Part shown: positions 40,623 to 63,310 of the stretch, piece after piece
Layout of the letters: each line of letters opens with the position of its first letter
How positions within the stretch are numbered: position 1 is the first letter of the stretch
DNA from: Bacteroidota bacterium
Lineage (GTDB): Bacteria; Bacteroidota; Bacteroidia; Chitinophagales; LD1
NCBI GenBank assembly: GCA_018267385.1
Contig: JAFDYN010000007.1
Span: 310,001 to 374,000 of the forward strand
DNA length: 64,000 bases
Direction: 5' to 3'
Position numbers and translations under genes: made by a program
Notes under the pieces: generated by a model
Seen by the model: only the letters and a program-made list of their open reading frames with translations
The model's database searches: none
Told to the model about the DNA's origin: nothing

Positions 40623-41708
40623 TTATGCTTTTGAGAAATAGTGATCTAATAGCGCAATATAGCCGGCGATACCAGCCTCTATCTCCCGGATGTAGATGTA
40701 CTCATCAGCGCTATGAGAGCGGGCCGAGTCTCCGGGGCCCATTTTCACAGAGGGCCATGGTAGCAATGCCATATCTGAGGTAGTAGGAGAGCCATATAAA
40801 TTTACGCCAAGGGATCGGGCTGATCCCAGTACGGCATGGTCAGGAGAGATAAATGACGGCTTGATACGCGTAGAGCGCTCTCTGACCTCGCAGGAAATGT
40901 GACTCCTTACTTCCTGCAGCACCTCCGCATGAGTATAGCAATCGTTCAAACGTATATCTACCGTAAAGGTACAGGCTGCCGGTACCTGATTGTGGGCCGA
41001 TCCGGCATTGATCATTGTCACATTCATACTGACCTCTCCCAGCCAGGGAGATACCTTGTCAAAACGATAGCTGCGAAACCAGTCAATATCCGGTATGGCA
41101 TTATAGATCGCATTGACCCCTTCCTGTCGTGCCGCATGACCTGCCACACCGTGTGCGGTACAGTCTAACACCAGGAGTCCGCGCTCTGCCACAGCCATCT
41201 GCATGAGTGTAGGCTCTCCGACTATGGCGAGATCAATAGGCGAAAGGTCAGTTATAATACTCTCTATCCCCCCGGTGCCGGAGATCTCCTCTTCGGCTGT
41301 AGCGGCATAAACAATATTAAATGGCAGATCAGCGCGGTCATAGTAGTGCAGAAACGCTCCCAGTAGTGAAACCAGAGGCCCACCGGCATCATTGCTACCC
41401 AGGCCATAGAGCTTATCATCTATGATCTGTGCGGCAAAAGGATCACGTGTATAACCTTTATTAGGCTTCACGGTATCATGATGTGAATTCAGTAGTAGCG
41501 TTTTCTTGCCGGGTGCGAAGGATTTATTTTTTGCCCAGATATTGTTACCCTTTCTGTGATGCAGGATGCCCCTGCCGGACAAATAGGAAACCAGGAGTTC
41601 TGCTGTGGCATCTTCCTCGCGGCTGAAAGAAGGTATGGCTATCAGCCTTTGTAGCAGGCTGATCATTTCAGTAGCAGTATCAGTGACTGATGCGCGTGCC
41701 ATAGCCAT
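40623..41708 (-). CDS. M20-family acyl-ornithine deacetylase (ArgE-type)
   Basis: 361 residues. Metal-site motifs: NSHHDTVKPNKGYTRDPF (about 94-111), GLGSNDAGGPL (about 121-131) and ATAEEEISGTGG (about 156-167). The position between argB and argH makes removal of the N-acyl group from acyl-ornithine or, in Bacteroidota, acyl-citrulline the likely reaction. Related proteins may be annotated DapE or LysK, but the context decides for arginine. The start overlaps argB by 29 bases, or 23 if the second ATG (41702) is used. Confidence 0.85.
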   Translation of the reverse strand: MAMARASVTDTATEMISLLQRLIAIPSFSREEDATAELLVSYLSGRGILHHRKGNNIWAKNKSFAPGKKTLLLNSHHDTVKPNKGYTRDPFAAQIIDDKLYGLGSNDAGGPLVSLLGAFLHYYDRADLPFNIVYAATAEEEISGTGGIESIITDLSPIDLAIVGEPTLMQMAVAERGLLVLDCTAHGVAGHAARQEGVNAIYNAIPDIDWFRSYRFDKVSPWLGEVSMNVTMINAGSAHNQVPAACTFTVDIRLNDCYTHAEVLQEVRSHISCEVRERSTRIKPSFISPDHAVLGSARSLGVNLYGSPTTSDMALLPWPSVKMGPGDSARSHSADEYIYIREIEAGIAGYIALLDHYFSKA

Positions 41709-42474
41709 GTTTATTATTTGCTAGTGAGATAATATCGTCCGAACGGCCTATGATGACCTGTGCAACACCATCTGATACAGCCTGACAGGCGTTGTCTATT
41801 TTGGGTATCATACCGCTACCTATGGTGCCGTTTGCTTTGAGTTCCGCAGCCTCTGATACTCTGATCAGCGGTATTACGCTATCCTCATCTGTGACGTCAC
41901 TCAGTACTCCATTCTTCTCAAAACAATATAACAATGTGGTCTGATACAGGCGGCTCATTGCTACCGCCAGACTCTGTGCGATCGTATCTGCATTAATATT
42001 GAGCAGATGCCCCGCGGCAGTACCGGATATGGGTGCAATAACCGGCGTAAGCCCGGCAGACAACAGCGCAGACAAGAGGTTTGTATTGATCCTGCCGGGT
42101 AGTATATCTCCTACCCAGCCATAGTCGATATCTTTGACAGGTCGCTTGGCTGCCGGTATGAGGCTGGCATCTACACCACTCAGGCCTATCGCATTTCCTC
42201 CGCGGGCATTGATTTTGGCTACGATAGTTTTATTGATAAAACCAGCGTAAGTCATGGTGACGATCCTAATAGTTGCATCATCAGTGATACGCCGGCCTTC
42301 TACCATTTTTGTCTCTATTCCCAGGCTGGTGCTGAGTTCTGTAGCGAGTTTACCGCCACCATGCACGAGTATTTTGGGCCCATCTATAGTGCAAAGATCG
42401 CTGAGAAATTTCTCAAGTACCGGCGTATTGTCTATCACATTACCACCTATCTTTATGACGATCAGCTGCTCCAT
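41680..42474 (-). CDS. argB: N-acetylglutamate kinase
   Basis: 264 residues. Amino-acid-kinase fold: IKIGGNVID (7-15), ILVHGGGKLATELS (35-48), GLSGVDASLIPAAKR, LNINADTIAQSLAVAMS and a C-terminal GTIGSGMIPKIDNACQAV motif. It phosphorylates the gamma-carboxylate of N-acylglutamate. The ATG overlaps the argF' stop by one base (TGATG). Confidence 0.93.
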   Translation of the reverse strand: MEQLIVIKIGGNVIDNTPVLEKFLSDLCTIDGPKILVHGGGKLATELSTSLGIETKMVEGRRITDDATIRIVTMTYAGFINKTIVAKINARGGNAIGLSGVDASLIPAAKRPVKDIDYGWVGDILPGRINTNLLSALLSAGLTPVIAPISGTAAGHLLNINADTIAQSLAVAMSRLYQTTLLYCFEKNGVLSDVTDEDSVIPLIRVSEAAELKANGTIGSGMIPKIDNACQAVSDGVAQVIIGRSDDIISLANNKHGYGTRISH

Positions 42475-43421
42475 CAGATTGTTTCCAGCATTTTTTTCAA
42501 AACAGCCTGTGCAGCCGTGACCCTATGGCCGGCCTGCACCTGTATCAGGCTGTCAGGCCCGTCTATCAGCTCGTCTATGAGCTCTACATTGCGACGTACA
42601 GGCAGGCAGTGCATGATCTTCGCATTATTAGTAGCTTGCATTTTTTGAGGTGTGAGGAGCCAGTCGCCCTCCACAGATGGCATAGCGCCATAATCCTCAT
42701 ATGAGGACCAGTTCTTGACATATACATAGTCTGCACCAGCCAGGGCTGCATCCTGATCATAGCTGACCTCTGCACCCCGGGAAAACTCCGGTGCCAGCTC
42801 ATATCCCCTGGGCTGGGCGATCACCACCTCCGCCCCGGAGGCTACTGCCCATTCGGCAAAGGAATTAGGAACAGCCTGAGGGAGCGCCTTGATGTGGGGT
42901 GCCCATGTGAGCACCACCCTGGGTTTTGCCCTTTTCTTTGTTTCAGCTATCGTGATCATATCAGCAAAGCTCTGCAGCGGATGGCGTGTGCCGGACTCCA
43001 GACTGATGAGCGGCCTGCTGCAGTACTTCTGGAAACTGTGCAATACCTGCTCCGTATAGTCCTTGTCTCTATCCACCAGGCCGGGGAAACTGCGCAGCCC
43101 TACGATATCGCAATATTGTGATATCACTCCGGCAGCTTCTCTGATATGCTCGCTCTTAGTACTATTCATCACAGCGCCATCTTCAAACTCTATCTGCCAG
43201 CTATCCTTATCCAGATTGAGCACCATTACATTCATTCCCAGATTGTAGGCGGCCCGCTGACTACTCATACGCGTACGCAGGCTAGGATTCAGGAAAAGTA
43301 ATCCAAGCGTCTTGCCTTTGCCCAGATCCGAGTACTCACCTATATTTTGTTTGATAGTGAGTGCCTCTTGTACCAGAGTAGGCACATCGCCTGCATCTTT
43401 TACTGTGAGAAACTGCTTCAT
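42474..43421 (-). CDS. argF': N-acylornithine carbamoyltransferase (argF' type)
   Basis: 315 residues, shorter and clearly different from ornithine carbamoyltransferase. Carbamoyl-phosphate loop FLNPSLRTRMSSQ (43-55), TRHPLQSFAD (about 157-166), WAPHIKALPQAVPNSFAEW and MHCLPVRRNVELIDE. This matches the N-succinyl-/N-acetyl-L-ornithine transcarbamylases of Bacteroides and Xanthomonas. The residue that sets acyl specificity in those enzymes (Pro90 in Bacteroides, Glu92 in Xanthomonas) appears to be Ser90 here (KSEH), so acetyl versus succinyl is open. Coupled to argD by a 4-base overlap. Confidence 0.9.
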   Translation of the reverse strand: MKQFLTVKDAGDVPTLVQEALTIKQNIGEYSDLGKGKTLGLLFLNPSLRTRMSSQRAAYNLGMNVMVLNLDKDSWQIEFEDGAVMNSTKSEHIREAAGVISQYCDIVGLRSFPGLVDRDKDYTEQVLHSFQKYCSRPLISLESGTRHPLQSFADMITIAETKKRAKPRVVLTWAPHIKALPQAVPNSFAEWAVASGAEVVIAQPRGYELAPEFSRGAEVSYDQDAALAGADYVYVKNWSSYEDYGAMPSVEGDWLLTPQKMQATNNAKIMHCLPVRRNVELIDELIDGPDSLIQVQAGHRVTAAQAVLKKMLETI

Positions 43422-44560
43422 ATATTAACGGGCGTTAGTTTAAGGCATGAAGACAATGCATCCAGGAAAATATCAGCCTGGTTTTTTGTCAGAGTCAGCG
43501 GGGGTAAGACGCGGAGGGTATTTTTATTTGACGAGGTGCCTGTAAAAATGTGATGCTCCTCCAGCAGTTTCCGGCGAAGCGGTGCACAAGGTCCATCAAG
43601 CTCTATACCTATCATCAGACCCATTCCCCTGACTTGTTTGACGCCTTGCAGCGCTTTGATCTGATCTATCAGGTATGCCCCTACACCAGCTGCATTTGCT
43701 ATCAGAGATTCTTCCTTCATCACATCGAGTACGGCTATTGCGGCAGCACAGGCCAGATAGTTGCCACCAAAGGTGGTACCCAGCAGGCCGTGACGGGCCT
43801 TATAGCCGGGACCCATTAGCACACCACCTATCGGAAAGCCATTGCCCATACCCTTGGCCATAGTCACGATGTCAGCCCGTATATCTGCATGCTGATGCGC
43901 AAAAAAATGACCGCTGCGGCCATAGCCTGACTGGATCTCATCCAGTATGAGTGAGGCACCATGCTGATCGCAAAGTTCGCGCAAGAGTTTCAAAAATGAA
44001 ACAGAAGGTACATGAACGCCGCCCACACCCTGTATACCCTCTATGATCACCGCCGAGATCTCGGTGCTCATAGCAGCTATCAGGGCATCTTCATCATTCC
44101 ATGGCAGGAAAATAATATTGCTGTTTTCATTGATTGCAGCCTGTATAGACGGGTCATGAGTGGCTGCTACCGCCAGTGATGTCCTGCCGTGAAAGGACCC
44201 TTCGAAAGCGATCACCTTTTTGCGGCCATTTTGAAAGGATGCTAGTTTGAGGGCGTTTTCATTCGCCTCTGCACCAGAATTACATAGAAACAGGCTATAG
44301 TCATCATATCCGCTCAGTGCGCCCAGCCTATCTGCCAGCTCCTGCTGCTGAGGTATTTTTACAGAGTTAGAGTAAAAGCCTATCTGGCGCAACTGCTCAC
44401 CCAGCAGGCTCACATAGTGCGGATGGCTATGGCCTATAGAGATAACTGCATGGCCACCGTAAAGGTCCATGTATTGCTCCCCCTTATCATCATATAGGTA
44501 GACGCCTTCACCCCTCACAGGTGTAATATCAAATAGCGGGTATACATCAAATAATTTCAT
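43418..44560 (-). CDS. argD: Acylornithine aminotransferase
   Basis: 380 residues. PLP class III aminotransferase: GHAVISIGHSHPHYV (about 35-49), FCNSGAEANENALKLA, FEGSFHGRTSLAVAATH, LILDEIQSGYGRSGHFF and the PLP lysine in MAKGMGNGFPIGGV. It transaminates N-acylglutamate semialdehyde to N-acylornithine. Two bases separate it from argC. Confidence 0.93.
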   Translation of the reverse strand: MKLFDVYPLFDITPVRGEGVYLYDDKGEQYMDLYGGHAVISIGHSHPHYVSLLGEQLRQIGFYSNSVKIPQQQELADRLGALSGYDDYSLFLCNSGAEANENALKLASFQNGRKKVIAFEGSFHGRTSLAVAATHDPSIQAAINENSNIIFLPWNDEDALIAAMSTEISAVIIEGIQGVGGVHVPSVSFLKLLRELCDQHGASLILDEIQSGYGRSGHFFAHQHADIRADIVTMAKGMGNGFPIGGVLMGPGYKARHGLLGTTFGGNYLACAAAIAVLDVMKEESLIANAAGVGAYLIDQIKALQGVKQVRGMGLMIGIELDGPCAPLRRKLLEEHHIFTGTSSNKNTLRVLPPLTLTKNQADIFLDALSSCLKLTPVNI

Positions 44561-44562
44561 GG

Positions 44563-45546
44563 TCAGAACGCAGAAGGTTTAAGTAATAGCCCGGTGGTTT
44601 CACCTAGCCCAAAAATGAGATTCATATTCTGGAGAGCCTGGCCGGATGCACCCTTCAGCAGGTTATCTATCACAGATGTGATGAGCACCTGGCCGTCAGA
44701 AACCTCCAGGTGCAACAAACACTTGTTAGTATTCACCACTTGCTTCATATCTATCTCGCGCCTGCTCACGTGCACGAAAGGATGAACGGAATAGTAGTGT
44801 TCGTACAAGCCAAGTAACGTTTCCAGGCTTTCATCTGTACGCACTACTATGGCGCTATGGATACCACGGGTAAAGTTACCCCTTTGAGGAATAAAAACTA
44901 AATCTGAGGCCAATTCTGGCTGCAGCACTTTAAGTGACTCTGCTATCTCTCTCAGATGCTGATGTGCAAATGGTTTGTATACCGATAGATTGCTATCGCG
45001 CCAGCTGAAATGCGTAGTAGCGCCCGGAGCCTGACCTGCCCCGGTACTGCCTGTAGTCGCATTGATATAGACATCTCCTCTGAGTACTCCTGCTGCTGCC
45101 AGTGGCAGGAGCGCCAGCTCTATACTGGTGGCGAAGCAGCCGGGGTTAGCTATGCTTTTGGCCACTTTTATCTTCTCTCTGTTTAGCTCCGGCAGACCGT
45201 ATATAAAGCTACGACCGGACGCGATATTCTTATCTGAATGACGAAAATCCTGACTGAGATCTATGATGACCACAGAATCAGGGATATCATTTTCATTGAG
45301 AAACTTACGAGCCGCATCATGACCTCCACACAGAAAAAGTACATCTATATCCGTACGGTAATCTGCAACAAATTTCAGCTCCGTGTCACCCAAAAGATCC
45401 GTATGAACATCTGATAAAAACTGATCGGCACTGCTCGTACTCTGTACGAAAGCTATCTCCACAGCGGAGTGCAGGAGCAAAAGACGTATGAGCTCGCCAC
45501 CTGTGTAGCCCGCGCCACCGATGATGCCTGCCTTAATCTTTTTCAT
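44563..45546 (-). CDS. argC: N-acetyl-gamma-glutamyl-phosphate reductase
   Basis: 327 residues. NADP site AGIIGGAGYTGGELIRLLLLH (5-25), catalytic cysteine in IANPGCFATSIELALLPL and FAHQHLREI / PQRGNFTRGIHSAIVV near the active site. It reduces acylglutamyl phosphate to the semialdehyde. The start overlaps the argG 3' end by 14 bases. Confidence 0.94.
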   Translation of the reverse strand: MKKIKAGIIGGAGYTGGELIRLLLLHSAVEIAFVQSTSSADQFLSDVHTDLLGDTELKFVADYRTDIDVLFLCGGHDAARKFLNENDIPDSVVIIDLSQDFRHSDKNIASGRSFIYGLPELNREKIKVAKSIANPGCFATSIELALLPLAAAGVLRGDVYINATTGSTGAGQAPGATTHFSWRDSNLSVYKPFAHQHLREIAESLKVLQPELASDLVFIPQRGNFTRGIHSAIVVRTDESLETLLGLYEHYYSVHPFVHVSRREIDMKQVVNTNKCLLHLEVSDGQVLITSVIDNLLKGASGQALQNMNLIFGLGETTGLLLKPSAF

Positions 45547-46750
45547 TTACAGCGTTGAGGTTATTGACCTGATAATAGATGCCGGTCTGGTTGCCAAATA
45601 TTTTGGTGAACCCCTTTACATCCTCTCCGCTCCAGGTTTTATTCATCTCACCATAGCTGCCAAATTTGGCGGACATAAGATCATGAGGTGAGCTGACCCC
45701 GGTCAATTCAAACCGGTATGGCATCATAGTGACGGATACCTCGCCGGATACAAATGCCTGTGTAGAGCTAAGGAAAGCCTCTATATCGCGCATGACAGGA
45801 TCAAAGTATTGGCCTTCGTGCAGCCAGTTGCCGTACCAGGCAGCCATTTGATCCTTCCAGTAGAGTTGCCATTTTGTGAGCGTATGCTTCTCTAGCAGGT
45901 GGTGTGCCTTGATGATGATCACCGGAGCGGCTGCCTCAAAACCTACCCTGCCTTTGATACCGATGATGGTGTCTCCCACATGTATATCGCGGCCTATGGC
46001 AAAAGGTGCTGCGAGCGCCTGGAGTGCCTGGATAGCATCTACAGGGTTGTCATACTGCACTCCATTGATTCCCTTCAATTCACCTTTTTCAAAAACAAGT
46101 TTTACTTCAGACATACCCTCGGCAGTGAGCTGTGTAGGGTATGCAGAATCTGGCAGGCTGCCATGTGAGGTCAGTGTTTCACGGCCGCCGACAGAGGTAC
46201 CCCAGATGCCCTTATTGATACTATATGCCGCCTTCTCAAAGTTCATATCCACCTGGTGCGCCTTCAGGTATTCGATCTCTGCCTCGCGGGACAGGCGAAG
46301 GTCTCGGATGGGCGTGATGATCTGCACAGCAGGGGCGATAATATGAAATACCATATCAAACCGTACCTGGTCATTGCCTGCGCCGGTACTGCCATGTGCC
46401 ACAGCCTCCGCACCGATCTCAGCAGCGTAACGCGCGGTAGCTATGGCCTGTACGATACGCTCCGCACTCACTGACAGAGGATATGTATTGTTCTTCAGTA
46501 CATTGCCAAAGATCAGGTAGCGTATGACATCGCGATAATAGTCATCGCGCGCATCTACAGCCTTGAACGACTTGACTCCCAGCTTCAGGGCGTGGGCTTC
46601 GATCTTCCCAAGCTCCTCATCAGAGAAACCGCCTGTATTGACAGTCAAGGCGTGTACCTCATAGCCCAGCTCCTCGCGGAGATGAATGGCGCAGAAGGTG
46701 GTATCTAATCCGCCGCTGAATGCGAGTACGACTTTTTTTGTTTGACTCAT
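45533..46750 (-). CDS. argG: Argininosuccinate synthase
   Basis: About 405 residues from ATG 46750 (MSQTKKVVLAFSGGLDTTFC). The frame extends back to 47002, but that part overlaps the upstream GNAT gene and has no family similarity. ATP-pyrophosphatase P-loop AFSGGLDTT, VAHGSTGAGNDQVRFD (aspartate/citrulline contacts) and SINKGIWGTSVGG are intact. It condenses citrulline with aspartate. It follows the GNAT gene by 7 bases. Confidence 0.93.
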   Translation of the reverse strand: MSQTKKVVLAFSGGLDTTFCAIHLREELGYEVHALTVNTGGFSDEELGKIEAHALKLGVKSFKAVDARDDYYRDVIRYLIFGNVLKNNTYPLSVSAERIVQAIATARYAAEIGAEAVAHGSTGAGNDQVRFDMVFHIIAPAVQIITPIRDLRLSREAEIEYLKAHQVDMNFEKAAYSINKGIWGTSVGGRETLTSHGSLPDSAYPTQLTAEGMSEVKLVFEKGELKGINGVQYDNPVDAIQALQALAAPFAIGRDIHVGDTIIGIKGRVGFEAAAPVIIIKAHHLLEKHTLTKWQLYWKDQMAAWYGNWLHEGQYFDPVMRDIEAFLSSTQAFVSGEVSVTMMPYRFELTGVSSPHDLMSAKFGSYGEMNKTWSGEDVKGFTKIFGNQTGIYYQVNNLNAVNEKD

Positions 46751-47399: not shown

Positions 47400-47672
47400 T
47401 TTCCTGTTTCCTATTGAAAAAACTACTAAAAAATATATCTCATCAGAGACACGACATGAGCAAACTATATGCCCATCTAAACGGGGAAAGGGTATGATCA
47501 GGCATCAACGCCTGGGGAAGAACGGGGTACAGAGCGTGAAACTAACAGCGTGCGCATCGATGGTAAATGCAGTGCCAGTCAGAGCAAAAGACCTTTTGCA
47601 AAAAGGCTTCCTGCTGACCCTGACCATCGATATATGTGTAGCTCCGATTTGCATCGCTATTTTTGAGGGATG
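47400..47672 (-). promoter_or_regulatory. Long structured 5' leader of the arginine operon
   Basis: About 270 bases between a plausible promoter and the first gene, without a credible coding frame. Pairing elements, read on the minus strand: an outer 9-bp stem ATCGATGGT (47631-47623) with ACCATCGAT (47564-47556); an inner GTCAG/CTGAC stem (47618-47614 with 47582-47578); and in the tip two mutually exclusive hairpins, CCTTTT/AAAAGG (47606-47592) and GCAAAAG/CTTTTGC (47599-47584). A further hairpin CAGGC/GCCTG lies at 47514-47499. No T-tract follows, so a classical attenuator is not evident. Confidence 0.45.
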
Positions 47673-47705
47673 CAATGATAGTAAATGTGACAGACTATCA
47701 ACAAG
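47673..47705 (-). promoter_or_regulatory. Probable arginine operon promoter
   Basis: On the minus strand CTTG (47705-47702), 21 bases, TATCATTG (47680-47673; one mismatch to TAnnTTTG). Transcription would begin near 47667, some 270 bases before the GNAT start. Confidence 0.5.
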
Positions 47706-50292: not shown

Positions 50293-51366
50293 ATGATCAG
50301 AACTATAATGAAATCTACAGCTGCCATCCTGACGGTGGGTGTCATGCTCGCTATAGCTCCGGGATGCAAAAAAAATAACCCTGCTCCATCCCTGACGGGC
50401 ACCTGGAAGAATATCGATACAATCTCATCTTCCGGATTTAAGTACCTGGTTTTGAAAGATAATCAAACCGCATTTAAGCTTGGAGCGCTTTTATATAATC
50501 TGCATATCAAAGAAGGAGTAGCTTATGTGATCGAGAAAGATGAGATCACGATACCTCTATCCGGCTCGAATGCTACTGTATACAGCTACAGGGTATCTAA
50601 TGATACGCTCTATCTGACCAGCCCCGGCAGTACCTGGAAGTTTAAAAAGGACGCTGATCAGGACCCTGCCCTGTGGGTCAGAGACATCTCCATCACAAGC
50701 TATACTTCAGCCGGAAATGGATTTTGGCTAGGTCCGCTGGATTATAATGGCACTAGCTATGTGATCAGTAGTGTTTATACTAAAAAATTATATTCCATCA
50801 ATGCCGCCAACACACTGCAAGTCGATTCGACTACTGCAATGGCTGGCACCGCCACCGGTCTGGCCAGCAGCGCATCCGGCACATGGATATCTACTCCATC
50901 TGTAGACCTGAAACTCAGAAATATAGACCTGCCTACATCTGCTGTCACTGCCCTGTCTAGCGCAGCACCTGCCGGCGTGGTGTCGATGGCAAAACATGGA
51001 AGCAAGATACTGGTGCTGACAGGCACAGGTACTTTTTACGATTATGATCCTGTGTCTGACAATTTTACATCACTTGCCTCATTGCCTGAGTTTTTCTCCG
51101 GGTCTGTTCCTACCGGATATATTGATATAGAGGTCAAAGATGATAAAGTGTATTTTCTATACTTCACCTATCTGATGGAGCTCGATCTCACTACAGGTCA
51201 GTTTACCAAAACTTATAATCTGCAGACCAACAGCACCGGCCTATCTCTGAATGGCTCCTATTTGGGCCTTTGTTATGACGGTACTTCCTTTGTCTCAGAG
51301 AGAGTGACTCAGGGTACCTCTTCCTATGACATTCATATTGATATTGCAAAATTTAACCTCCCTTAG
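50293..51366 (+). CDS. Lipoprotein, lipocalin-like plus beta-propeller-like (paralogue 1)
   Basis: 357 residues. Signal peptide with lipobox IAPGC (Cys at about 25) followed by KKNN. A small beta domain starting SLTGTWKNIDTI (about 35-120) resembles lipocalin-like lipoproteins; the rest has repeated strand units with YDGTSF / YDPVSDNFTSLASL turns that suggest a propeller of sensor type. Surface or periplasmic exposure is expected. Paralogous to the next two genes, with which it forms an operon (2 bases to the next gene). Function unknown. Confidence 0.65.
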   Translation: MIRTIMKSTAAILTVGVMLAIAPGCKKNNPAPSLTGTWKNIDTISSSGFKYLVLKDNQTAFKLGALLYNLHIKEGVAYVIEKDEITIPLSGSNATVYSYRVSNDTLYLTSPGSTWKFKKDADQDPALWVRDISITSYTSAGNGFWLGPLDYNGTSYVISSVYTKKLYSINAANTLQVDSTTAMAGTATGLASSASGTWISTPSVDLKLRNIDLPTSAVTALSSAAPAGVVSMAKHGSKILVLTGTGTFYDYDPVSDNFTSLASLPEFFSGSVPTGYIDIEVKDDKVYFLYFTYLMELDLTTGQFTKTYNLQTNSTGLSLNGSYLGLCYDGTSFVSERVTQGTSSYDIHIDIAKFNLP

Positions 51367-51368
51367 AC

Positions 51369-52379
51369 ATGAAGCGTTCCATTATTAATAAGAGCCTTCT
51401 GGCATTTATCGTGCTGGCAATCCTATTCTCCGGATGCAAAAAAGGAAATACTACATCTAACCAGCTGGTGGGATCGTGGCGTTTGGTAAATGCTCCTTAT
51501 GGACCGGGCTATGTGATCATCGGGTCTGATATGATTCTCACTACTTTGACGACCACCTCTACAGGAGCGCACGAATACTCAAAAAAAGCCTATCAGATCG
51601 AGTCCAATACGGTTTTGGTCAGCAATACACTTTTCCAGTATAGTAAGTCCGGAGACACGCTAAAACTGCTGCAGGATGTAGACAATCCGAATAGCTCTAA
51701 CAATTTCATACTGGTGCCGGATGCGTCTTCTACCACTCTGGACACATGGATGCCACTGGCAGTATATGGCACCAGCCTGCCGTGGCCAGATCTGCAGATG
51801 GACGCGCTGACTACTATAGGCGGTACTATCTGGACGAGCTACTCCTATGGAGGATTGAAAGCATATAACTCCAGCACTGCCACATATGTGAGTGGTTTCA
51901 ACCTCGCAAATAGTGCAAGTGGTATTGAAGCCGTCGGCAGCGACCTCTGGGCATATGATCAGATAGGGAGGACCCTGGTAAAAGTGAATGTAACTACTCA
52001 TGCGGTCACCTTCACCTCTCCCGCTGTGCCTCATGGCAGTGGGAATGTATGTCAGCTGGCTTATGATGGGGTAAATAATATTTATTGCATCAATGGCTAT
52101 AGACTTGATGTTTATAACATTGGTACCAATTCCTTCAACTCTTATCAAATGCCGGATAGCTACAATGACCTTGCATTTGCAGATGGCTACCTTTTCGCAG
52201 TTACGAATTCGACCGTTTTAAAAATAGATCCTGCTACCCTTCAAGTCGTGAAAACATACCGTCTGAAAGATGGCATGGGCTCAGATGTCATAGCATCAGC
52301 AGGTGGCAGTGATTTCTGGATCTACGTTTCAGACGGACTACAGGTACCCGGCAGCTTTCAAAAAATCACCCTTAACTAA
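51369..52379 (+). CDS. Lipoprotein, lipocalin-like plus beta-propeller-like (paralogue 2)
   Basis: 336 residues with lipobox LFSGC (Cys at about 22), then KKGN and a QLVGSWRLVNAPYG domain matching the first paralogue in position (GxW after the lipidated Cys). The second half has KVNVTTHAVTF, YDGVNNIYCINGYRLDVYN and LKIDPATLQVVKTYRLKDG, again propeller-blade-like. It is in the same operon. The three copies keep their architecture but differ strongly in sequence. Confidence 0.65.
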   Translation: MKRSIINKSLLAFIVLAILFSGCKKGNTTSNQLVGSWRLVNAPYGPGYVIIGSDMILTTLTTTSTGAHEYSKKAYQIESNTVLVSNTLFQYSKSGDTLKLLQDVDNPNSSNNFILVPDASSTTLDTWMPLAVYGTSLPWPDLQMDALTTIGGTIWTSYSYGGLKAYNSSTATYVSGFNLANSASGIEAVGSDLWAYDQIGRTLVKVNVTTHAVTFTSPAVPHGSGNVCQLAYDGVNNIYCINGYRLDVYNIGTNSFNSYQMPDSYNDLAFADGYLFAVTNSTVLKIDPATLQVVKTYRLKDGMGSDVIASAGGSDFWIYVSDGLQVPGSFQKITLN

Positions 52380-52403
52380 TCAGAAAGCATAAATCACTAT
52401 AAT

Positions 52404-53411
52404 ATGCATCAGCAAAACATCTCACTAAGCATAATAGCAATAGGATTAATAGCCATACTGTCCGGCTCCTGCAAGAAAGAAAACACCGCTACAAAATCCC
52501 TCACAGGTAGCTGGGTCAAAGCAGGAACTACCGAAGAATTTTACATAGCTACATCTGACAATAAATGGTATGCCGTCTCAAAGGATTACGATGGCTATAA
52601 GATCATAAGTGCGTACAAATATGAGTACACAGGTACACAACTCAAACTACAAGGAGTCTCAGACCTGCTCCTGTATAATACACGCTATAGCGGAGACACC
52701 CTGATACTCAACGATGGAAATACCGATTACCTCAAGCTGCTACCGAGTAATACCGCTCCAAAATCCCTTGCTCAATGGGTACATGTCCCTACCGTTGTTT
52801 CTTCTTTTGCAGATACGGCCGGTGTGACTGCCATCACCTATTATGGCGGCCACATATACGCACTGAAAAACTACCCGGGTAGTACGTCTTATACTAAGTT
52901 ATTTGAATTTGATCCGGCACAACAGCGCATAGTACATGAAGTGGTCACAGATCAGGAATACGACGGGCTTGACTTTCTCGATGGAACCCTTTGGGCGTCC
53001 AGTGCCAATCAGTTATATCACCTCAATACAACTACAGGGATAAACTCATATAGCTCACCTTCCAATCCATCAGCTAATATTTCTGCCCTGGCAGCTAAAT
53101 CAGACGGCATTTATGCTCAAAGCTATGGCAATATTCAGGTTTTTGATCCGGTAGCATCTACATGGAACCATTATCCGCATTCGCTCAGCAGTGATGTAAA
53201 AGATCTGGCATACGCCAACGGTTATTTGTTATTTGGACACGTAGGCTTGCTGTATAGTGTGCATCCGTACTATCTGCAGCCCGGTGACGGCGCATGGTAT
53301 CTGGAGGGCTATAATATTAACTGCGTGGCATATGACGGCACTTATTATTGGGTAGGAGTTCAAGATCTGAGCTCTCAGAAGTATGAGATAATGAAGTTGC
53401 AATTGAACTAA
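52404..53411 (+). CDS. Lipoprotein, lipocalin-like plus beta-propeller-like (paralogue 3)
   Basis: 335 residues, lipobox LSGSC (Cys at about 24) then KKEN, SLTGSWVKAGTTEEFY at the lipocalin-like start and repeats such as LFEFDPAQQRIVHEV, YHLNTTTGINSYSS and IQVFDPVASTWNHYP, where FDP-type turns recur at blade spacing. It is the last of the tandem triplet, 24 bases after paralogue 2, and converges on the yifB remnant. Confidence 0.65.
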   Translation: MHQQNISLSIIAIGLIAILSGSCKKENTATKSLTGSWVKAGTTEEFYIATSDNKWYAVSKDYDGYKIISAYKYEYTGTQLKLQGVSDLLLYNTRYSGDTLILNDGNTDYLKLLPSNTAPKSLAQWVHVPTVVSSFADTAGVTAITYYGGHIYALKNYPGSTSYTKLFEFDPAQQRIVHEVVTDQEYDGLDFLDGTLWASSANQLYHLNTTTGINSYSSPSNPSANISALAAKSDGIYAQSYGNIQVFDPVASTWNHYPHSLSSDVKDLAYANGYLLFGHVGLLYSVHPYYLQPGDGAWYLEGYNINCVAYDGTYYWVGVQDLSSQKYEIMKLQLN

Positions 53412-53424
53412 ACCGGTCGTCCTC

Positions 53425-53910
53425 TTAGCCTGCCCAATTTTCCCTATCTAGGCTGCGATACTGAATAGCCTCTGCTATATGCTCCGTTTTTATATCCGGG
53501 CTATCGGCCAGATCTGCCACCGTACGCGCTACCTTCAGGATACGGCTATAGGCGCGGGCAGAAAGTTGCAGCTTTTGCATGGCACGATCGAGCAGATTGC
53601 GGGCCGGATCTGTGATCAGGCAGACTTCTTCCACTTGTTTTGCTTCCATCTGCGCATTGGCGTACATTCCTTCTTTGTCCTTGAAGCGCTCTTCCTGTAT
53701 CTGCCGTGCCCTGATCACCCGCTCGCGGATCGCATCACTCGGCTCTGCGCGCTGCTGATTGCTGAGTTCCTTAAACGCCACAGGAGTGACCTCTACATGC
53801 AGATCGATACGATCCAGTAGTGGTCCTGATATTTTATTAAGATACTTTTGAACCACTCCCGGGGCGCATACGCATTCCTTGTCGGGATGGTTATAAAATC
53901 CGCAAGGACA
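53425..53910 (-). pseudogene. yifB: yifB/comM, 3' part only (5' part displaced by an island)
   Basis: The surviving 160 or so residues run from CPCGFYNHPDKEC through the sensor/lid region ISGPLLDRIDLHVEVTPV and the Mg-chelatase C-terminal domain (AYSRILKVARTVADLAD) to the normal end. A complete YifB/ComM is about 510 residues; the N-terminal Lon-like domain, Walker A and Walker B are missing. Similarity starts inside the conserved NPCPCG motif at about 53910; the frame continues to 53958 through unrelated island DNA (SKRVPHA). ComM is a branch-migration helicase of natural transformation. The break is at the beginning of the AT-rich island. Confidence 0.8.
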
Positions 53911-53933
53911 TGCATGCGGTACCCTTTTGGAAT

Positions 53934-54338
53934 ATGCATAAAATAGCTCGTAATGCATTGGGAATTATTATTTTAGAAAAGGAAACTCCTATCGGGCTGC
54001 ATATTAGAAAAAAGCGCCTTGAACTCCAAATGAACCAAGAGGATGTGGCTAAGAAACTGGGCGTTACTGAGTCATGCATCTGGCTTTGGGAGAATCTAGA
54101 GGCAAAACCACAAATCCATTATATGCCTAAAATAATCGCCTTTCTCGGCTACTGTCCGGTAGAGTTTGATATGTCATCGATAGGAAACCGTATTAAGTCC
54201 TACAGATATGTGAATGGTTTAAGTTGTGATTCGCTGGGCTTGCTACTTGGAGTAAAAGGTGGGGCAGTGAGCTACTGGGAAAACGGCGGAATACCGAAAC
54301 CAAAGACCTTAACAAAAATCCAATCGCTCATAGGGTAG
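53934..54338 (+). CDS. XRE-family helix-turn-helix regulator with two HTH units
   Basis: 134 residues from ATG 53934; an upstream ATG at 53910 would begin in yifB-derived DNA. The first HTH is at about 24-50 (IRKKRLELQMNQEDVAKKLG, then VTESCIWLWEN). A second, parallel copy lies at about 88-125 (IGNRIKSYRYVNGLSCDSLG, then VSYWENGG). This double Cro/C1-like layout is common next to mobile elements in Bacteroidota. It is the only plus-strand gene of the island, stands right at the junction and has its own terminator; a role in regulating the island is inferred. Confidence 0.8.
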   Translation: MHKIARNALGIIILEKETPIGLHIRKKRLELQMNQEDVAKKLGVTESCIWLWENLEAKPQIHYMPKIIAFLGYCPVEFDMSSIGNRIKSYRYVNGLSCDSLGLLLGVKGGAVSYWENGGIPKPKTLTKIQSLIG

Positions 54339-54465: not shown

Positions 54466-57324
54466 CTAAGAGTTCTCATCCTTCTGAAAAAGATTCTCAG
54501 ATGCTTTCGTGCTTTGATTAAAGTAGTTGAACTTATGTAAATGACCTAGGTGATAGAACAACTTATACACTACTACTCGGTGCTGTAAATATGTAGCCCT
54601 ATTATTTCTACCTGTAATAAATGAGCCACCACAAGGATCAAGGAAATAGCCAGGTCGAGCAGCCATTACATTTCCATCCTTACTGTTCCTTTGTAGGAAC
54701 TCAAATTTTGGAGAATAAAAATTTAGAATTGCATTGATGGTCGACATATAAAATGTGCTCATTTTCTTGTCACACACTCTATCAACGTCATCTCCTTCTT
54801 CTTCGCTCAAAACCTTTTTGTCGATGAAAGCACAAAATGACTTCATATCGATTTTTTCAGGGGAAGACAATAAATCGTTCACGAAAGAAACGACATCTTT
54901 ATCAATCCAAGTTGTTTTTAAAAATCTCATAGCGTCACTGGATAAAACGCTTCTCACTTCTTCGAGCCAACCAGAAAAAGCACTGTCAGTGTTCAGGCTA
55001 TTTAAAACTCTACGAATATCAGCATTGAAAAAATCCTCGTGCTCTTTAAAAACATTGAAGTCAGAAACTTGGTAGATTTCTAGTAAATCTTCTCTTGTGA
55101 GACGGGGAGTTCTGGTTATTAAAATCTTTAGAAGGCCAAGCCTAAACGAAAGAGTAAGGAAATAGGTGTCATTAACTTTGTTAGGCGCATCGAAAACGTG
55201 CCCGGATTGGAAGAAATGATTCCACCGTACCTGACAAAACAGTTCAAAGTTATTATCAAAACACACCTGCAGATTCATATAATCTGTAATAAGGTATCTT
55301 AATGTCTCCGAACTCATTGAATTTAGAACATCTGGATAATCCAGTTTCGATTCCAATAAATCAAATACTCCAAACACATTTGGGCCATTCTCTTGTTCCG
55401 GGAAAAAGGCATGTACCAAATTGGGAAGATTAAACTCAATCCCAGCAGATTGGTATAGCAACACTAATCTTCGCATTAGATCATTTTCTTCAACGCTGGG
55501 CTTACCTTTACTAAACAAGTCATCACAAAACTTCTCTATCGAAAAACTAAGAGACTCGTGTGATGCCATAGTTGAATAAATGTACGGCTGAATGATATAC
55601 AGAAAATTCATTGCGAGAGTATCGTGGGAACTCATTATCCTGCTATTACCACGAACATTTAAAAAGGAGATGTTATTGCTTTCACGCTCACGGCTGATAT
55701 TATTCAAAGCTTTGTAACATGAATCGTAACCAGATATCAGGTTATGTATACCACCGGAATAGTCAGTATTAACTTCGGGAATCTCCCATGTCCAATAACT
55801 TTGATAAAATCTATTATGATAGCCAACATCCAAATTACTACAAATAGTTTCAAGAATTTTGACCAGTCTCAAAACAGGGTACCCTTCTTTACCCTTGTTC
55901 TGATAATATAAATCGACGGTATTGATGATACAGTTTTTGATATGCGGCTCCAATTCAATATAGAAGACAAACATATCTGGCGAGAGAATTGCGTTATTGT
56001 AGTTAGCTAATATTCGTAATAACTTTTCGGAAAGAGGTTTTGGCAACCACAATGCTTTGATCTGTTCTTTGAGCTTATCAAACGCGTCACTTTTGACAGT
56101 ATAATTTTGAAGGCATGAGTGGAACTCAAAATGGTTGTCAGGAATAAAATCGTTTTCATTTCCTAACTCAAATCCAACTGTAGTATATGTTTCTCGTACA
56201 TGTTTCCTTAGAGAGTCTGCTGTTTTTGACTCTGGATTAGGGAAGGTCTTTCTAAAGTAATACTCAGGGAATTCAAAGGTATTAGCATCCTGTGGCACCT
56301 TTACCTCTTTCTTAACTAGTAAATCGCCTTTACCAGCTATGAGAAATTTTTCATCAAACTCAGAATCGGAGTTATCATCCTCTATTTTAGAAATGATCTC
56401 GATTACTTTCTGAGTATGGCCTGGCTTAATATTCCATCGAGAGAAAAAAGTGACTTTCTCATTTTTAATTGGTTCAACGACCTTCTTTGAAAATTGAGAA
56501 TCGTCTGTGTAATAGTCAAAATGAAAACCAAACGATGTAAATGTGCTTTCAAAAAGATGGTTATCAATTATGTTTGCATCCAACTTTTTAGGGGCTAACT
56601 CTCCATTCTCGTCGCGCTCATGATCGGCCATGTATTGCAATAAGGAATTAGAGATTAACTCTTCAGCAAATTCGATAGTATCGACAGCCTGCCTAAATTT
56701 TAGATTACGAATAAGGACAACTATTTTTCTGAGAAGATCAATGCTGTTACTTTTTGCAACTATAATGAGCTCGTGGTAAGAAAAAGACTCTAGAACATTG
56801 ACTTTGATAATCTGTTCATCAGTATATGCATAGGTGCGGACAATACTTTCTATTTTTGCTTTTACAGTATCAAGAAATTTTATGCCATTACCTACTAGGA
56901 GAGCGCTACTCAACTTTAGTTGCGTGATGGATACATAGGGAAGTGACGACTTGGGATCTGGAACAGTGCCATGTTGAATTTGAATTGGATTCAAACCTAG
57001 GATTACACGGTAATCAAAGTTTTGCATTTCACCATGACTTTGACTAACGACAGAGTCTATTCTTGGACTGAATTCTCTAGTGCCAAATTCCCAATCGTCA
57101 ACATTACTGAGAATACAGATGTCATACTTCCCCCATAGATAATAGACATCAGGATTATATAAATCCTCATAGGTTCTAACATCTTCTCCTGAGTAATCAG
57201 CTAGTCCTTTTCGATAGGGATCAAAGAGTCGTTCTTTTATTTCTTTTTTTACAAACTCCTTTTGGTTCTGAAAAGGTATGGAGCTAAACCCAATGAATAC
57301 TCCTTTTTTGTCTATGTCAATCAT
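54466..57324 (-). CDS. Large protein of unknown function, candidate system component (952 residues)
   Basis: Not recognised. No signal peptide or membrane span, so probably cytoplasmic. The N-terminal 345 residues contain three segments with a similar look, a strand ending in a small turn followed by a strand with a helix before it: GKYDICILSNVDD (65-77), SFSYHELIIVAKSNSIDLLRKI (180-201) and IAGKGDLLVKKEV (329-341), the last preceded by FFSRWNIKPGHTQKVIEIISKI (293-314). They recall ferredoxin-like AsnC/Lrp ligand-binding folds, so a small-molecule or protein sensor is possible. The remaining 600 residues are mainly helical. The gene follows the 182-residue protein gene but behind a strong terminator hairpin 7 bases from its ATG. 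AT-rich. Confidence 0.6.
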   Translation of the reverse strand: MIDIDKKGVFIGFSSIPFQNQKEFVKKEIKERLFDPYRKGLADYSGEDVRTYEDLYNPDVYYLWGKYDICILSNVDDWEFGTREFSPRIDSVVSQSHGEMQNFDYRVILGLNPIQIQHGTVPDPKSSLPYVSITQLKLSSALLVGNGIKFLDTVKAKIESIVRTYAYTDEQIIKVNVLESFSYHELIIVAKSNSIDLLRKIVVLIRNLKFRQAVDTIEFAEELISNSLLQYMADHERDENGELAPKKLDANIIDNHLFESTFTSFGFHFDYYTDDSQFSKKVVEPIKNEKVTFFSRWNIKPGHTQKVIEIISKIEDDNSDSEFDEKFLIAGKGDLLVKKEVKVPQDANTFEFPEYYFRKTFPNPESKTADSLRKHVRETYTTVGFELGNENDFIPDNHFEFHSCLQNYTVKSDAFDKLKEQIKALWLPKPLSEKLLRILANYNNAILSPDMFVFYIELEPHIKNCIINTVDLYYQNKGKEGYPVLRLVKILETICSNLDVGYHNRFYQSYWTWEIPEVNTDYSGGIHNLISGYDSCYKALNNISRERESNNISFLNVRGNSRIMSSHDTLAMNFLYIIQPYIYSTMASHESLSFSIEKFCDDLFSKGKPSVEENDLMRRLVLLYQSAGIEFNLPNLVHAFFPEQENGPNVFGVFDLLESKLDYPDVLNSMSSETLRYLITDYMNLQVCFDNNFELFCQVRWNHFFQSGHVFDAPNKVNDTYFLTLSFRLGLLKILITRTPRLTREDLLEIYQVSDFNVFKEHEDFFNADIRRVLNSLNTDSAFSGWLEEVRSVLSSDAMRFLKTTWIDKDVVSFVNDLLSSPEKIDMKSFCAFIDKKVLSEEEGDDVDRVCDKKMSTFYMSTINAILNFYSPKFEFLQRNSKDGNVMAARPGYFLDPCGGSFITGRNNRATYLQHRVVVYKLFYHLGHLHKFNYFNQSTKASENLFQKDENS

Positions 57325-57352
57325 AAAAAAACCCTCATAATGTTATGAGGGT
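57325..57352 (-). terminator. Terminator-like hairpin abutting the 952-residue gene
   Basis: On the minus strand AACCCTCATAA-CA-TTATGAGGGTT, an 11-bp perfect stem, followed by T residues that run into the ATG at 57324. It ends the 182-residue protein gene but also occupies the place of the 5' leader of the next gene. Confidence 0.8.
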
Positions 57353-57373
57353 TGAATATAAGTATTTTGATGT

Positions 57374-57922
57374 CTATTTACGTTTTTTCCTAATGTTCTT
57401 TTCTTCATTTCCTATAGGGGATAAAACGTCCCTGAATCCATACGTAGTAACAGTATTGCGTATACGAGCGTAATCCTTTTTGAACGCAATTCTGCGATGA
57501 GGCGCGACGATAAATTCTTCTTTGAAAATAGCATTGACTTGATCAGCATACGGCAGACCGGCAATCCCTTCTTCAAAAGAGGTCAGTTGGTCCATCAAAG
57601 GGCCTTGCATGTTTTTAATCGTTAAACCAGATATTTCCGAGATGCGATTAGAAAACGTAGAGATATAGTTTACCCAATAGTCGATTATTTCCTGTGCATT
57701 GATAGTGCTCAGAAGTGAGTTGCGGTAAACCAGGTAGCTAAGAATCTTAAACTCGATGTAGAGCGAAAATAGTTCTGAACCGAGAGGGAAGTTCTTCTTT
57801 TTAGTATCGGCGTTCTGACCGATAGTAATATCATCATAAGATTTCCGCAGTTGGTACAAAAGCTCCTCGCGATCAACTTTTTCAATGATCGTGGTAAGAA
57901 GGTTATTGTTTATGCTGTTCAT
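57374..57922 (-). CDS. Helical protein of unknown function (182 residues)
   Basis: Not recognised. Predominantly alpha-helical by residue pattern (LLTTIIEKVDREELLYQLRKSY at the start; a central ELFSLYIEFKILSYLVYRNSLL segment of high hydrophobicity that is amphipathic rather than membrane-spanning), with a basic tail (EEKNIRKKRK). It could be a small adaptor or antitoxin-like partner for a neighbour. A perfect -7 element and a palindromic candidate operator lie upstream, so it seems to be the first gene of its own transcript. Confidence 0.6.
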   Translation of the reverse strand: MNSINNNLLTTIIEKVDREELLYQLRKSYDDITIGQNADTKKKNFPLGSELFSLYIEFKILSYLVYRNSLLSTINAQEIIDYWVNYISTFSNRISEISGLTIKNMQGPLMDQLTSFEEGIAGLPYADQVNAIFKEEFIVAPHRRIAFKKDYARIRNTVTTYGFRDVLSPIGNEEKNIRKKRK

Positions 57923-57993
57923 GACTGAATTTTTCTATAGTGTACCAAGCGGTTCTCGCCATGTCCATACATATAGGTTTTAAATAGGTCGGG

Positions 57994-58001
57994 CAAACAT
58001 A
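57994..58001 (-). promoter_or_regulatory. -7 element upstream of the 182-residue protein gene
   Basis: TATGTTTG on the minus strand, a full TAnnTTTG match, 71 bases before the ATG at 57922. No TTTG at -33; instead a palindrome covers that region. Confidence 0.45.
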
Positions 58002-58019
58002 CCCTTAAATTGGCACTTT

Positions 58020-58038
58020 TTGTACACATTGTGAATAA
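58020..58038. promoter_or_regulatory. Imperfect palindrome, candidate operator
   Basis: TTGTACAC-ATT-GTGAATAA: six of eight positions of the half-sites are complementary. It lies 18 bases upstream of the -7 element, where a regulator would control polymerase entry. The XRE protein of the same island is a possible binder (inference). Confidence 0.35.
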
Positions 58039-58104
58039 CTATTTATGGGGGTTTTGAATATTATACTTATACCGGTTAAATTTGTTTCAAAATGTTGATA
58101 ATCA

Positions 58105-59970
58105 TTAGGATTCTGAAAACACGTAGCGTCCAGAAAAATCGACATGTGCAATAGTTTCTAGCTCCTTTACCTTCAGAATTCTCAGTTCTTGTTCAAATTC
58201 GATGCCTAACGTCACATCGTCCAGTTGAGGATAAAAGTCAGGTAGTTGCTGATCGAATCGAGGTAATGAAATCTTATTTTTAGTAAGAAAGTAGTTGATT
58301 TTCAAGCCCAATAGCTCTTCATACCGACTACGATATTCATCCTCCAGCAGGCATGAAAGGGGATCGACAAATAACGGATAGTAGATAGTATTCCCCTTTG
58401 CATCATGCAGCCCTTTCTGAATCCGAATTGCCACACTCTCCCGCTCAGGCCCGAAGTCTAGTTCATCTGTAAATATTACATCGAACAAAATGGTAACCTT
58501 ATCCGTAACCATTTTAGCCTCCTTCACATACATATTTCTTGTTGGTACACTCGCCGGAGCACCATCGGTTTTCGTAGCAGCTGGGTCTTCTAATTTGAGT
58601 CCCGGATAATCTGGACGCATCATCTGCTTAGGCATCTTAACAAACTTACTAACCTCACTAAGCACGAACGTATCATCTAACTGCTTTAGTATTGCTAGCA
58701 AACTGTCGTTAACAAAACATCGCATTTTAGCCTTTAGGTTATTGTACGATTCTGCTAGTCCTTGATTTGTTTCGTATGAATCGAAGTTTGGCTTCGATTC
58801 AATAATCGGAGCGCCTAGGTTGATCTCAGTTGTGTCCTTTAACCCACCATTCTTCTTTTCTTTACCAGCTAAACGAAACTGACCATCGGTACGAAGATAA
58901 ATGTCTCTAGTTATCTCCACTTTATCCGTGTCTTTAGAATTTGTGACTACTTCATAGGTGTAAAAGAAAGGTCTATCATTTGCGCCATATTCATTTAAGT
59001 GAGCACCACCGCCAACAAAATTAGGTAAGTCGTTGTAGTAGTTATTATGAATGTCTTCGGATTCGACTGGATGAGTATGACCACAAATCAGTAAATGACA
59101 TTTGCCACTTAGATATTTGTAAAATCCAGAGCCTCGTAAATCCTTTATGTAGTTTCTCTCGAAAGGATGCAAATGTGTTTCCGGGTGATGGAAGACTAGG
59201 ATATTAATTTTTTTATTATCAAGCTTCTCAATTGCTTCAATGATTTTTTCGTTTTTATAGAAACCGAGTTGCTGCGTTTTATTCTCAGATACATTAAGCA
59301 TTCCTGATAAGAAGGAAACTCTTTCCTTACCTTCCTTGTCCAAAACGATTTGTGAAGCTTTATCATAAAATACCCCACCATACTGCAAAGCTAGGCTTTC
59401 ATACATCGCAGTATTTTCATTTTTTATGTCTTCGATTATTGACTTTTCAAAGCGCTCTAATGCTACACCATTAATCTGTGAAAGCCATGATGAATTCAAA
59501 ACAACGAATCGAACATTATCGAACTCTTTATATACAGTAAGTAATTCGTTAGGGTTCCATTTGCTGTCAATCTCACTTACGTACGACGTGAAAATTGAAT
59601 CTTTATATGCGTCAGAGAATAAATATTCCTGACCTTTTGTATGATCTGTCCTAACCTCGTGATGTTGCTCCGGCAGTATGTCTGTTCGTATGTCGTGGTT
59701 ACCTGGACAAAAAATGATATTGGCAGCCGGAATACCCAAATCAGTATCGAGGTTAGCCAACCATTTCTTTGCATAGGTGAGATTATGCTCTGCACAACGA
59801 TCACCAAAATCTCCGGTTAGAAGTAGAAAATCAATTTGTCCTTTAAATTCATCAACGAGATATTTCCGCAACGCAGTATGAAATTCAATACGCTCAGTGT
59901 TATTCATATATTTTGTATCCTCCTTCGACACAAAATGAAAATCGGTTACATGTAGAATTCTAAACTTCAT
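58105..59970 (-). CDS. Calcineurin-like metallophosphoesterase with unknown C-terminal domain
   Basis: 621 residues. The phosphoesterase motifs are complete and in order: D10-x-H12 (HVTDFHF), GD at 53-54 (LLTGDFGDR), GNHD at 90-93, FHHPE (H262/H263) and GHTH at 298-301. The catalytic domain ends near 345; about 275 further residues contain no domain I recognise. Such enzymes hydrolyse phosphodiesters in nucleotides or nucleic acids; conflict systems use them as effectors. There is no signal peptide. The gene lies in the AT-rich cargo between the ATPase and the 182-residue gene, on the same strand. Confidence 0.85.
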   Translation of the reverse strand: MKFRILHVTDFHFVSKEDTKYMNNTERIEFHTALRKYLVDEFKGQIDFLLLTGDFGDRCAEHNLTYAKKWLANLDTDLGIPAANIIFCPGNHDIRTDILPEQHHEVRTDHTKGQEYLFSDAYKDSIFTSYVSEIDSKWNPNELLTVYKEFDNVRFVVLNSSWLSQINGVALERFEKSIIEDIKNENTAMYESLALQYGGVFYDKASQIVLDKEGKERVSFLSGMLNVSENKTQQLGFYKNEKIIEAIEKLDNKKINILVFHHPETHLHPFERNYIKDLRGSGFYKYLSGKCHLLICGHTHPVESEDIHNNYYNDLPNFVGGGAHLNEYGANDRPFFYTYEVVTNSKDTDKVEITRDIYLRTDGQFRLAGKEKKNGGLKDTTEINLGAPIIESKPNFDSYETNQGLAESYNNLKAKMRCFVNDSLLAILKQLDDTFVLSEVSKFVKMPKQMMRPDYPGLKLEDPAATKTDGAPASVPTRNMYVKEAKMVTDKVTILFDVIFTDELDFGPERESVAIRIQKGLHDAKGNTIYYPLFVDPLSCLLEDEYRSRYEELLGLKINYFLTKNKISLPRFDQQLPDFYPQLDDVTLGIEFEQELRILKVKELETIAHVDFSGRYVFSES

Positions 59971-60075
59971 AGATAATACTATTGGTCCTTGCAGTATAAA
60001 AAAGATTAATATTTATTTTCTTAACACTAAGATTACATTTTTTTTGATTTATGCGAATAGGAAACCAATAGCTGT

Positions 60076-60252
60076 TTATATCCTGTGCAGAAAAACAATC
60101 ACAAGAAAATTATGCTTTATACTTTCTAATTTTAGCTTCTTAGTATTCCTCAGAGAAAGGTTTGAGCAAGCTTCAAGCAGACCTTTTTTGTTTTGCACGG
60201 CTATTACTGATTGCCTGAATAATTCAATCATTAATAACTTTTTAAACTTCAT
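60076..60252 (-). CDS. Possible small basic protein (58 codons), weak
   Basis: A frame starting at an ATG that overlaps the end of the ATPase gene (GATGAAGTTTAA contains both) and reading MKFKKLLMIELFRQ... with many Lys and Ile. Otherwise the 270-base gap between ATPase and phosphoesterase genes is AT-rich and holds nothing else I can name. The overlap would permit translational coupling, but the composition does not differ from random AT-rich DNA. Confidence 0.2.
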   Translation of the reverse strand: MKFKKLLMIELFRQSVIAVQNKKGLLEACSNLSLRNTKKLKLESIKHNFLVIVFLHRI

Positions 60253-63304: not shown

Positions 63305-63310
63305 AGAATC

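Follow-up and report, generated by a model that had tools for sequence, protein, structure and literature searches.

The question raised by this locus is how an arginine operon is regulated in an organism in which no ArgR, control by which is the best-known regulation of arginine operons, was found. ArgR was likewise found in none of 99 genomes of the order, with the same search being positive in 9 of 14 control genomes. The operon lies in the stretch of DNA analysed in the present study (64,000 nucleotides; hereafter the window) and is headed by an acetyltransferase gene starting at position 47399 of the minus strand (Table 1). The original prediction placed a long regulatory leader before this operon, which is supported because the leader is conserved and intergenic, has an invariant promoter-like block upstream of it and belongs to a genome in which ArgR was not found; the place and role assigned to the leader are thus retained here, and its proposed parts, a hairpin switch, are not. 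Based on sequence comparisons, we propose with a probability of about 0.72 that the leader contains a short gene that is translated, and that the ribosome translating it senses arginine and controls operon expression in cis.

Table 1 Features of the arginine locus, in window coordinates
Feature	Position	Strand	Basis or remark
Leader ORF, 49 codons plus TGA (MQIGATHISMVRVSRKPFCKRSFALTGTAFTIDAHAVSFTLCTPFFPRR, then stop)	47505-47654	(-)	Frame-specific purifying selection
Conserved C-terminal 25 codons (LTGTAFTIDAHAVSFTLCTPFFPRR)	47508-47582	(-)	Synonymous and non-synonymous counts against congeners
Terminal Arg-Arg codons, AGG CGT	47508-47513	(-)	Penultimate Arg also in 64/72 leader ORFs
Promoter-like block CTATCATTGCATCCCTCAAAA	47661-47681	(-)	Invariant in 4 aligned congeners; putative promoter
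Hairpin 1 (CAGGC GTTGAT GCCTG)	47499-47514	(-)	Over Arg codons and stop; paired in 4/4 congeners
Hairpin 2 (AUGGGCA/UGCUCAU)	47456-47476	(-)	Paired in 4/4 congeners; two one-sided consistent changes
Hairpin 3 and U-run (GUGUCUC UGAU GAGAUAU AUUUUUUA)	47427-47452	(-)	Weak terminator-like, -6.7 kcal/mol
Originally predicted hairpin	47555-47632	(-)	Shares bases with the leader ORF; outer stem broken in G004 and G005
First operon gene, GNAT-type acetyltransferase, 213 aa	46758-47399	(-)	Pfam domains
argG	45533-46750	(-)	Pfam domains; putative name and co-transcription
argC	44563-45546	(-)	Pfam domains; putative name and co-transcription
argD-type aminotransferase	43418-44560	(-)	Pfam domains; putative name and co-transcription
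Carbamoyltransferase	42474-43421	(-)	Pfam domains; putative name and co-transcription
argB-type kinase	41680-42474	(-)	Pfam domains; putative name and co-transcription
Genes after the acetyltransferase together (argG to argB-type)	41680-46750	(-)	Pfam domains

Several other features of the window were recorded. The gene upstream of the arginine leader lies on the opposite strand, and a terminator-like site is present at 47752-47738 (-), upstream of the promoter-like block. Three lipoprotein-like ORFs, each 335-357 aa long, lie in tandem at 50293-53411 (+) and look like paralogues, with a sub-threshold DUF6923 match, in one of them, as the only match. A Mg-chelatase-like gene (comM/yifB-type) appears to be split: a C-terminal fragment lies at 53425-53958 (-), and the strongest match in the genome to a ChlI N-terminal domain is on the same strand of that contig, about 60 kb outside the window (contig C25, 423923-424291 (-)); the stretch between the two pieces may be an integrated element. 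Large ORFs in this possible element span 54466-63829 (-), including a 952-aa protein without a Pfam match, and the element also holds a phosphoesterase-like ORF of 621 aa and an ATPase-like ORF of 1020 aa, names that come from reading the sequence.

The leader ORF runs from an ATG at 47654 to a TGA ending at 47505 and encodes a peptide ending in CTPFFPRR. A shorter reading from the ATG at 47627 was replaced by this in-frame start, which is preferred because all eight family members that have the first operon gene then give a peptide of 49 aa. A search of 30 family genomes matched the peptide at E ≤ 0.0021 in exactly these eight, and the other 22 gave peptide matches no better than E 0.226. Between the window and congener G004 the ORF has 20 differences, falling as 3, 3 and 14 by codon position, with a pN/pS of 0.07 in the ORF frame and 1.94 and 1.45 off-frame; against congener G005 the ratio is 0.29, with 1.59 and 1.23 off-frame. 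The three pairs within the window's genus gave 0.07, 0.29 and 0.33 (off-frame 1.02-1.94), values that barely moved when Arg codons were removed (0.08, 0.27 and 0.32), and 0 of 20000 neutral simulations were as conserved as the ORF for these pairs. The latter half of the non-Arg codons shows 10 synonymous and 0 non-synonymous differences from G004 and 11 and 1, respectively, from G005; at synonymous sites the ORF diverges freely in the congener comparison. Among 27 hand-picked leader pairs pN/pS was below 1 in every case, and the ORF frame had the lowest ratio in 21. Judged from these substitution patterns, the leader ORF is a real conserved gene under strong codon-level purifying selection. 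A short ORF selected for coding is thus present between the predicted promoter and the operon, as in leader-peptide attenuators, and its conserved C-terminal residues extend beyond the sensed codon, as in nascent-chain arrest. The window peptide matched 0 Pfam families at E ≤ 10, and eight of the collected peptides had no match to Pfam or NCBIfam leader-peptide families; the only match among these eight was to DUF7676, sub-threshold at E = 0.17, for the peptide of family member L016, in which the single Arg in 49 codons is the penultimate one.

Counterparts were sought in 108 upstream regions of the acetyltransferase gene, comprising 28 matches in 26 relatives and 80 further loci that are the best 80 of a longer list and not a random sample. 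Record titles of the 80 include Chitinophagaceae, Sphingobacteriaceae, Cytophagales and Flavobacteriaceae, and one locus (L127) is titled Beijerinckiaceae, which does not belong to Bacteroidota. In 104 of the 108 loci the gene directly after the acetyltransferase gene is argG, in the same orientation; the four others are two with too little sequence and two second copies without argG nearby (L035, L036). At 67 loci there was an ORF starting with ATG, 35-55 aa long and with Arg among its three C-terminal residues (shuffles: mean 3.3, maximum 7; reverse strand: 6), a number that rose to 84 with GTG and TTG starts allowed (shuffles: mean 7.0, maximum 12; reverse strand: 12). A rule blind to Arg identified an ATG leader ORF in 72 of the 108 regions, in several Bacteroidota families, and none in 36. 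Arg occupies the penultimate position (-2) in 64 of these 72 ORFs, 64 of the 71 with argG and 32 of 39 after thinning, as compared with 12 of 108 control uORFs found before 362 other genes of the same loci, or 6 of the 28 controls with intergenic upstream regions. Codons of the regulated amino acid are therefore found at the control position, as in leader-peptide attenuators, the window ORF ending Arg-Arg-stop. Phe or Tyr is present at -5 in 50/72 (21/39 thinned) and Arg at -8 in 39/72 (18/39 thinned), where the window peptide has Cys. AGG and CGA account for 48% of the Arg codons in leaders versus 17% in the downstream gene, and the leader stop is UGA in 59/84. No ORF ending near Arg was detected at 24 loci even with GTG and TTG starts; five of these have a short Arg-rich ORF in the equivalent position (shuffles: mean 0.42, maximum 2), and the other 19 have none by the rule used, a few ending by eye in RRGC- or RRPGC-like peptides. 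A TACG[TC][AG]G motif occurs 16-28 bases after the leader stop in 8/84 leaders (L017, L048, L064, L066, L068, L100, L104 and L113; shuffle mean 1.0, maximum 5), in a context that is hairpin-like by eye.

Upstream of the leader ORF, about 260 bases before the acetyltransferase gene, the 21-base promoter-like block includes TATCATTG (47673-47680), which we take to be a Bacteroidetes TAnnTTTG-like promoter element. The promoter originally predicted about 270 bases before the gene is borne out to the extent that an invariant promoter-like block is found there; a sigma-70-type scan found no promoter. Downstream, hairpins 1-3 are paired in four congeners with no two-sided changes, and hairpin 1 was left without a covariation test because it does not vary among the four. 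A terminator scan returned a site at 47485-47472, overlapping hairpin 2, and did not return hairpin 3, the U-run of which is shorter in G004. In a fold model, hairpin 3 of the window scored 0.97 in free RNA, 0.98 with a ribosome at the stop codon and 0.97 with one at the penultimate Arg codon, and it was weak in G004 (0.26) and G005 (0.19). A ribosome placed eight codons before the stop lowered it to 0.69 in the window and raised it to 0.43 in G004, and the alternative pairing sought reached 0.01 or less. The model, which does not include Rho, thus gave no clear ribosome-dependent switch in the window's genus. Terminator-like sites were found in 22/84 leaders versus 9/84 shuffled, leaving intrinsic terminators without support as the general output, and a hairpin at the stop codon was not clearly enriched (0.55 vs 0.50; 41/72). 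C exceeds G in 72/76 arginine leaders as compared with 45/82 other intergenic regions, and also in 75/84 leader ORFs and 65/84 upstream flanks, the count for the downstream gene being 14/84. A Rho RNA-binding domain is encoded at about 8192-8413 (-), placing rho inside the same window. This domain and the C-over-G leaders together suggest Rho in general, an output weakened in the window itself because the post-stop segment there is not C-rich (C 0.17, G 0.20).

Since the peptide ends in arginine, it is probably the translating ribosome that senses arginine and not an RNA that folds as a switch, and the conserved leader gene is most likely the sensor of the operon. In our reading this gene encodes a leader-peptide arginine sensor to whose action the nascent chain contributes in its own right. 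Arginine supply would be reported by where the ribosome stands, on the final Arg codons or on the stop; the pause would be prolonged by the conserved C-terminal half of the nascent chain, acting within the exit tunnel; and the operon would be on when arginine is scarce. With plentiful arginine the ribosome would finish and expose downstream RNA, leading to an early transcription stop through Rho on G-poor RNA or, in the window's genus, through hairpin 3; with scarce arginine the ribosome might, at a guess, halt at rare Arg codons and protect the downstream RNA. The L016 peptide is difficult to fit to simple starvation sensing because of its single Arg in 49 codons.

Among known systems, the trp and his attenuators likewise have a short ORF that follows the promoter, precedes the amino-acid operon and carries product codons near its end. 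They differ in that the arginine leaders are mostly 35-49 aa, often with few Arg codons and with conserved non-Arg residues, and show no clear terminator responsive to the ribosome in the fold model. The fungal arginine attenuator peptide is alike in that a leader peptide is thought to sense a small ligand and differs in being eukaryotic; it is likened by description only. An RPxxPR-hydrophobic end is present in 7/72 leaders (3/39 thinned), with an Arg-Arg spacing equal to that of R12 and R17 of apidaecin, whose P11 has no counterpart there, and the C-terminal ending of drosocin presumably resembles these ends. Pro-Arg followed by a hydrophobic residue (PR[LIVAM]) closes 23/72 leaders (5/39 thinned), whereas the window peptide ends PFFPRR (PRR), unlike apidaecin. 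Apidaecin and drosocin, type II proline-rich antimicrobial peptides, have the penultimate Arg in common with the arginine leaders but are insect peptides acting after release. In apidaecin, P11, R12, R17 and L18 are nearly invariant, the penultimate Arg (R17) contacts the release factor and L18 lies near the P-site tRNA (PMC11347161). The leader ORF of speF in gammaproteobacteria (orf34/SpeFL) also has Arg codons, with an Arg beside the stop, and is characterised by arginine/ornithine control, Rho-dependent termination and a hairpin downstream of the stop (PMC6386406, PMC8429421), but controls ornithine decarboxylase; its Pfam family, PF10940, was not matched by the window peptide at E ≤ 10. 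In Salmonella, arginine acts via the Arg codons of orf34; Rho takes part, the ribosome is proposed to pause at the stop, and Arg34 beside the stop is dispensable for the arginine response (PMC6386406). TnaC and SpeFL both arrest at stop codons, the arrest of TnaC being dependent on peptide sequence, occurring at an RF2-read stop codon and affecting operon expression (PMC8429421); TnaC differs in sensing tryptophan for catabolism and is likened by description only. The nearest account among the matches listed, in a Flavobacterium psychrophilum transcriptome study (PMC9723704), refers in general terms to attenuation by leader peptides upstream of amino-acid operons, and the available part of a leader-gene survey does not mention arginine (PMC4833913).

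These comparisons bear on how the sensor would work. A possible but less likely alternative is arrest by the nascent chain when arginine is high: a peptide that is complete or almost complete would keep the terminating ribosome at UGA in the manner of TnaC, SpeFL or apidaecin, and this ribosome would lower operon expression through a blocked stop-codon hairpin or changed mRNA stability. Conservation of the C-terminal half beyond the Arg codons, the penultimate Arg with an aromatic residue at -5, the prevalence of UGA stops and the single Arg of L016 are all consistent with this explanation, as are the need of apidaecin for its penultimate Arg (PMC11347161) and the proposed pause of speF orf34 at its stop under high arginine (PMC6386406). 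The enrichment of rare Arg codons, however, fits decoding rather than arrest, and the stop hairpin lacks clear enrichment.

That same codon enrichment would be expected of a plain trp/his-type attenuator, in which Arg codons alone matter and peptide conservation is incidental. The short Arg-rich leader ORFs of some related families point the same way, as does the his operon of the source genome (L160), upstream of which a short ORF of uncertain start carries a run of four His, a classical attenuator pattern; most of the 14 searched hits (L148-L161) also have an upstream short ORF with a His run. We nevertheless consider this explanation doubtful for the arginine leader, given the strong selection on non-Arg codons, the one Arg codon of L016 and a fold model without a clear ribosome-responsive terminator. 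Peptide-level conservation and a constant 49 aa within the family could also indicate a small protein acting in trans, for example on the acetyltransferase, instead of a cis sensor; the location of the ORF beside the first operon gene in 8/8 cases within the family and the concentration of conservation next to the stop codon make this very unlikely.

The hairpins of the original prediction are real as sequence features. The 9-bp outer stem said to close 76 bases is a perfect inverted repeat (ATCGATGGT/ACCATCGAT at 47556-47564/47623-47631), and overlapping inverted repeats exist where competing hairpins had been placed at the tip. The 84-nt element has a folding energy of -31.3 kcal/mol (z = -3.8; 0/200 shuffles as good) within a 306-nt leader that is mildly structured as a whole (z = -1.8; 5/100 shuffles as good). 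Congener G001 keeps all 10 pairs of the outer stem (the 9 plus one U-G) and all 31 pairs of the element but is uninformative, its leader being 99% identical to that of the window; G004 keeps 7 and 26 pairs, respectively, and G005 keeps 4 and 21. The outer stem, on whose conservation the original prediction had staked itself, is thus broken in both G004 and G005, and the matching stretches fold at z = +1.1 in G004 and, without the outer stem, at z = -2.1 in G005. Across four aligned congeners the outer helix is paired in 77.5% of cells. The two inner helices largely persist, being paired in 90.9% and 95.0% of cells, mainly because their pairs do not vary (6/11 and 7/10 invariant). Two pairs in the element show two-sided change, which is not above shuffles (115/500). 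Switching through these hairpins is not supported, because two congeners lack an intact outer stem and covariation does not exceed shuffles, and the congener comparison of the stems rejects the hairpin as the conserved element. The 3' arm of the outer stem overlaps codons for the conserved residues TID of the leader ORF. A known RNA family was rejected as the identity of the leader, there being no match to Rfam covariance models at gathering scores (one chance-level snoRNA match, E = 6.3, lies elsewhere), and so was a repeat or mobile element, with one full copy in the genome and 12 other matches that are short and at E ≥ 0.5. A structured RNA element or riboswitch, despite the fold of the window and its well-paired inner helices, is therefore largely refuted and highly improbable, given its broken outer stem, unremarkable covariation, lack of an Rfam match and freely diverging synonymous sites. 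On sequence grounds, a translated leader peptide appears to account for the conservation of the leader better than a hairpin switch.

No paper on a Bacteroidota arginine leader peptide was present among the matches listed from the open-access literature. By analogy, Bacteroidota leader peptides might arrest their own terminating ribosomes via the penultimate Arg, much as apidaecin and drosocin do, with arrest coupled to arginine supply and taking the place of the missing ArgR, although we regard this as rather unlikely. As the peptide is conserved up to the stop codon, its counterparts provide many natural variants for studying how a nascent chain and a single penultimate Arg might hold the ribosome at a stop codon. 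In an order with ArgR in none of 99 genomes, a conserved leader peptide sits where control is expected, and if the proposed role is true, many Bacteroidota arginine operons would gain a testable regulator.
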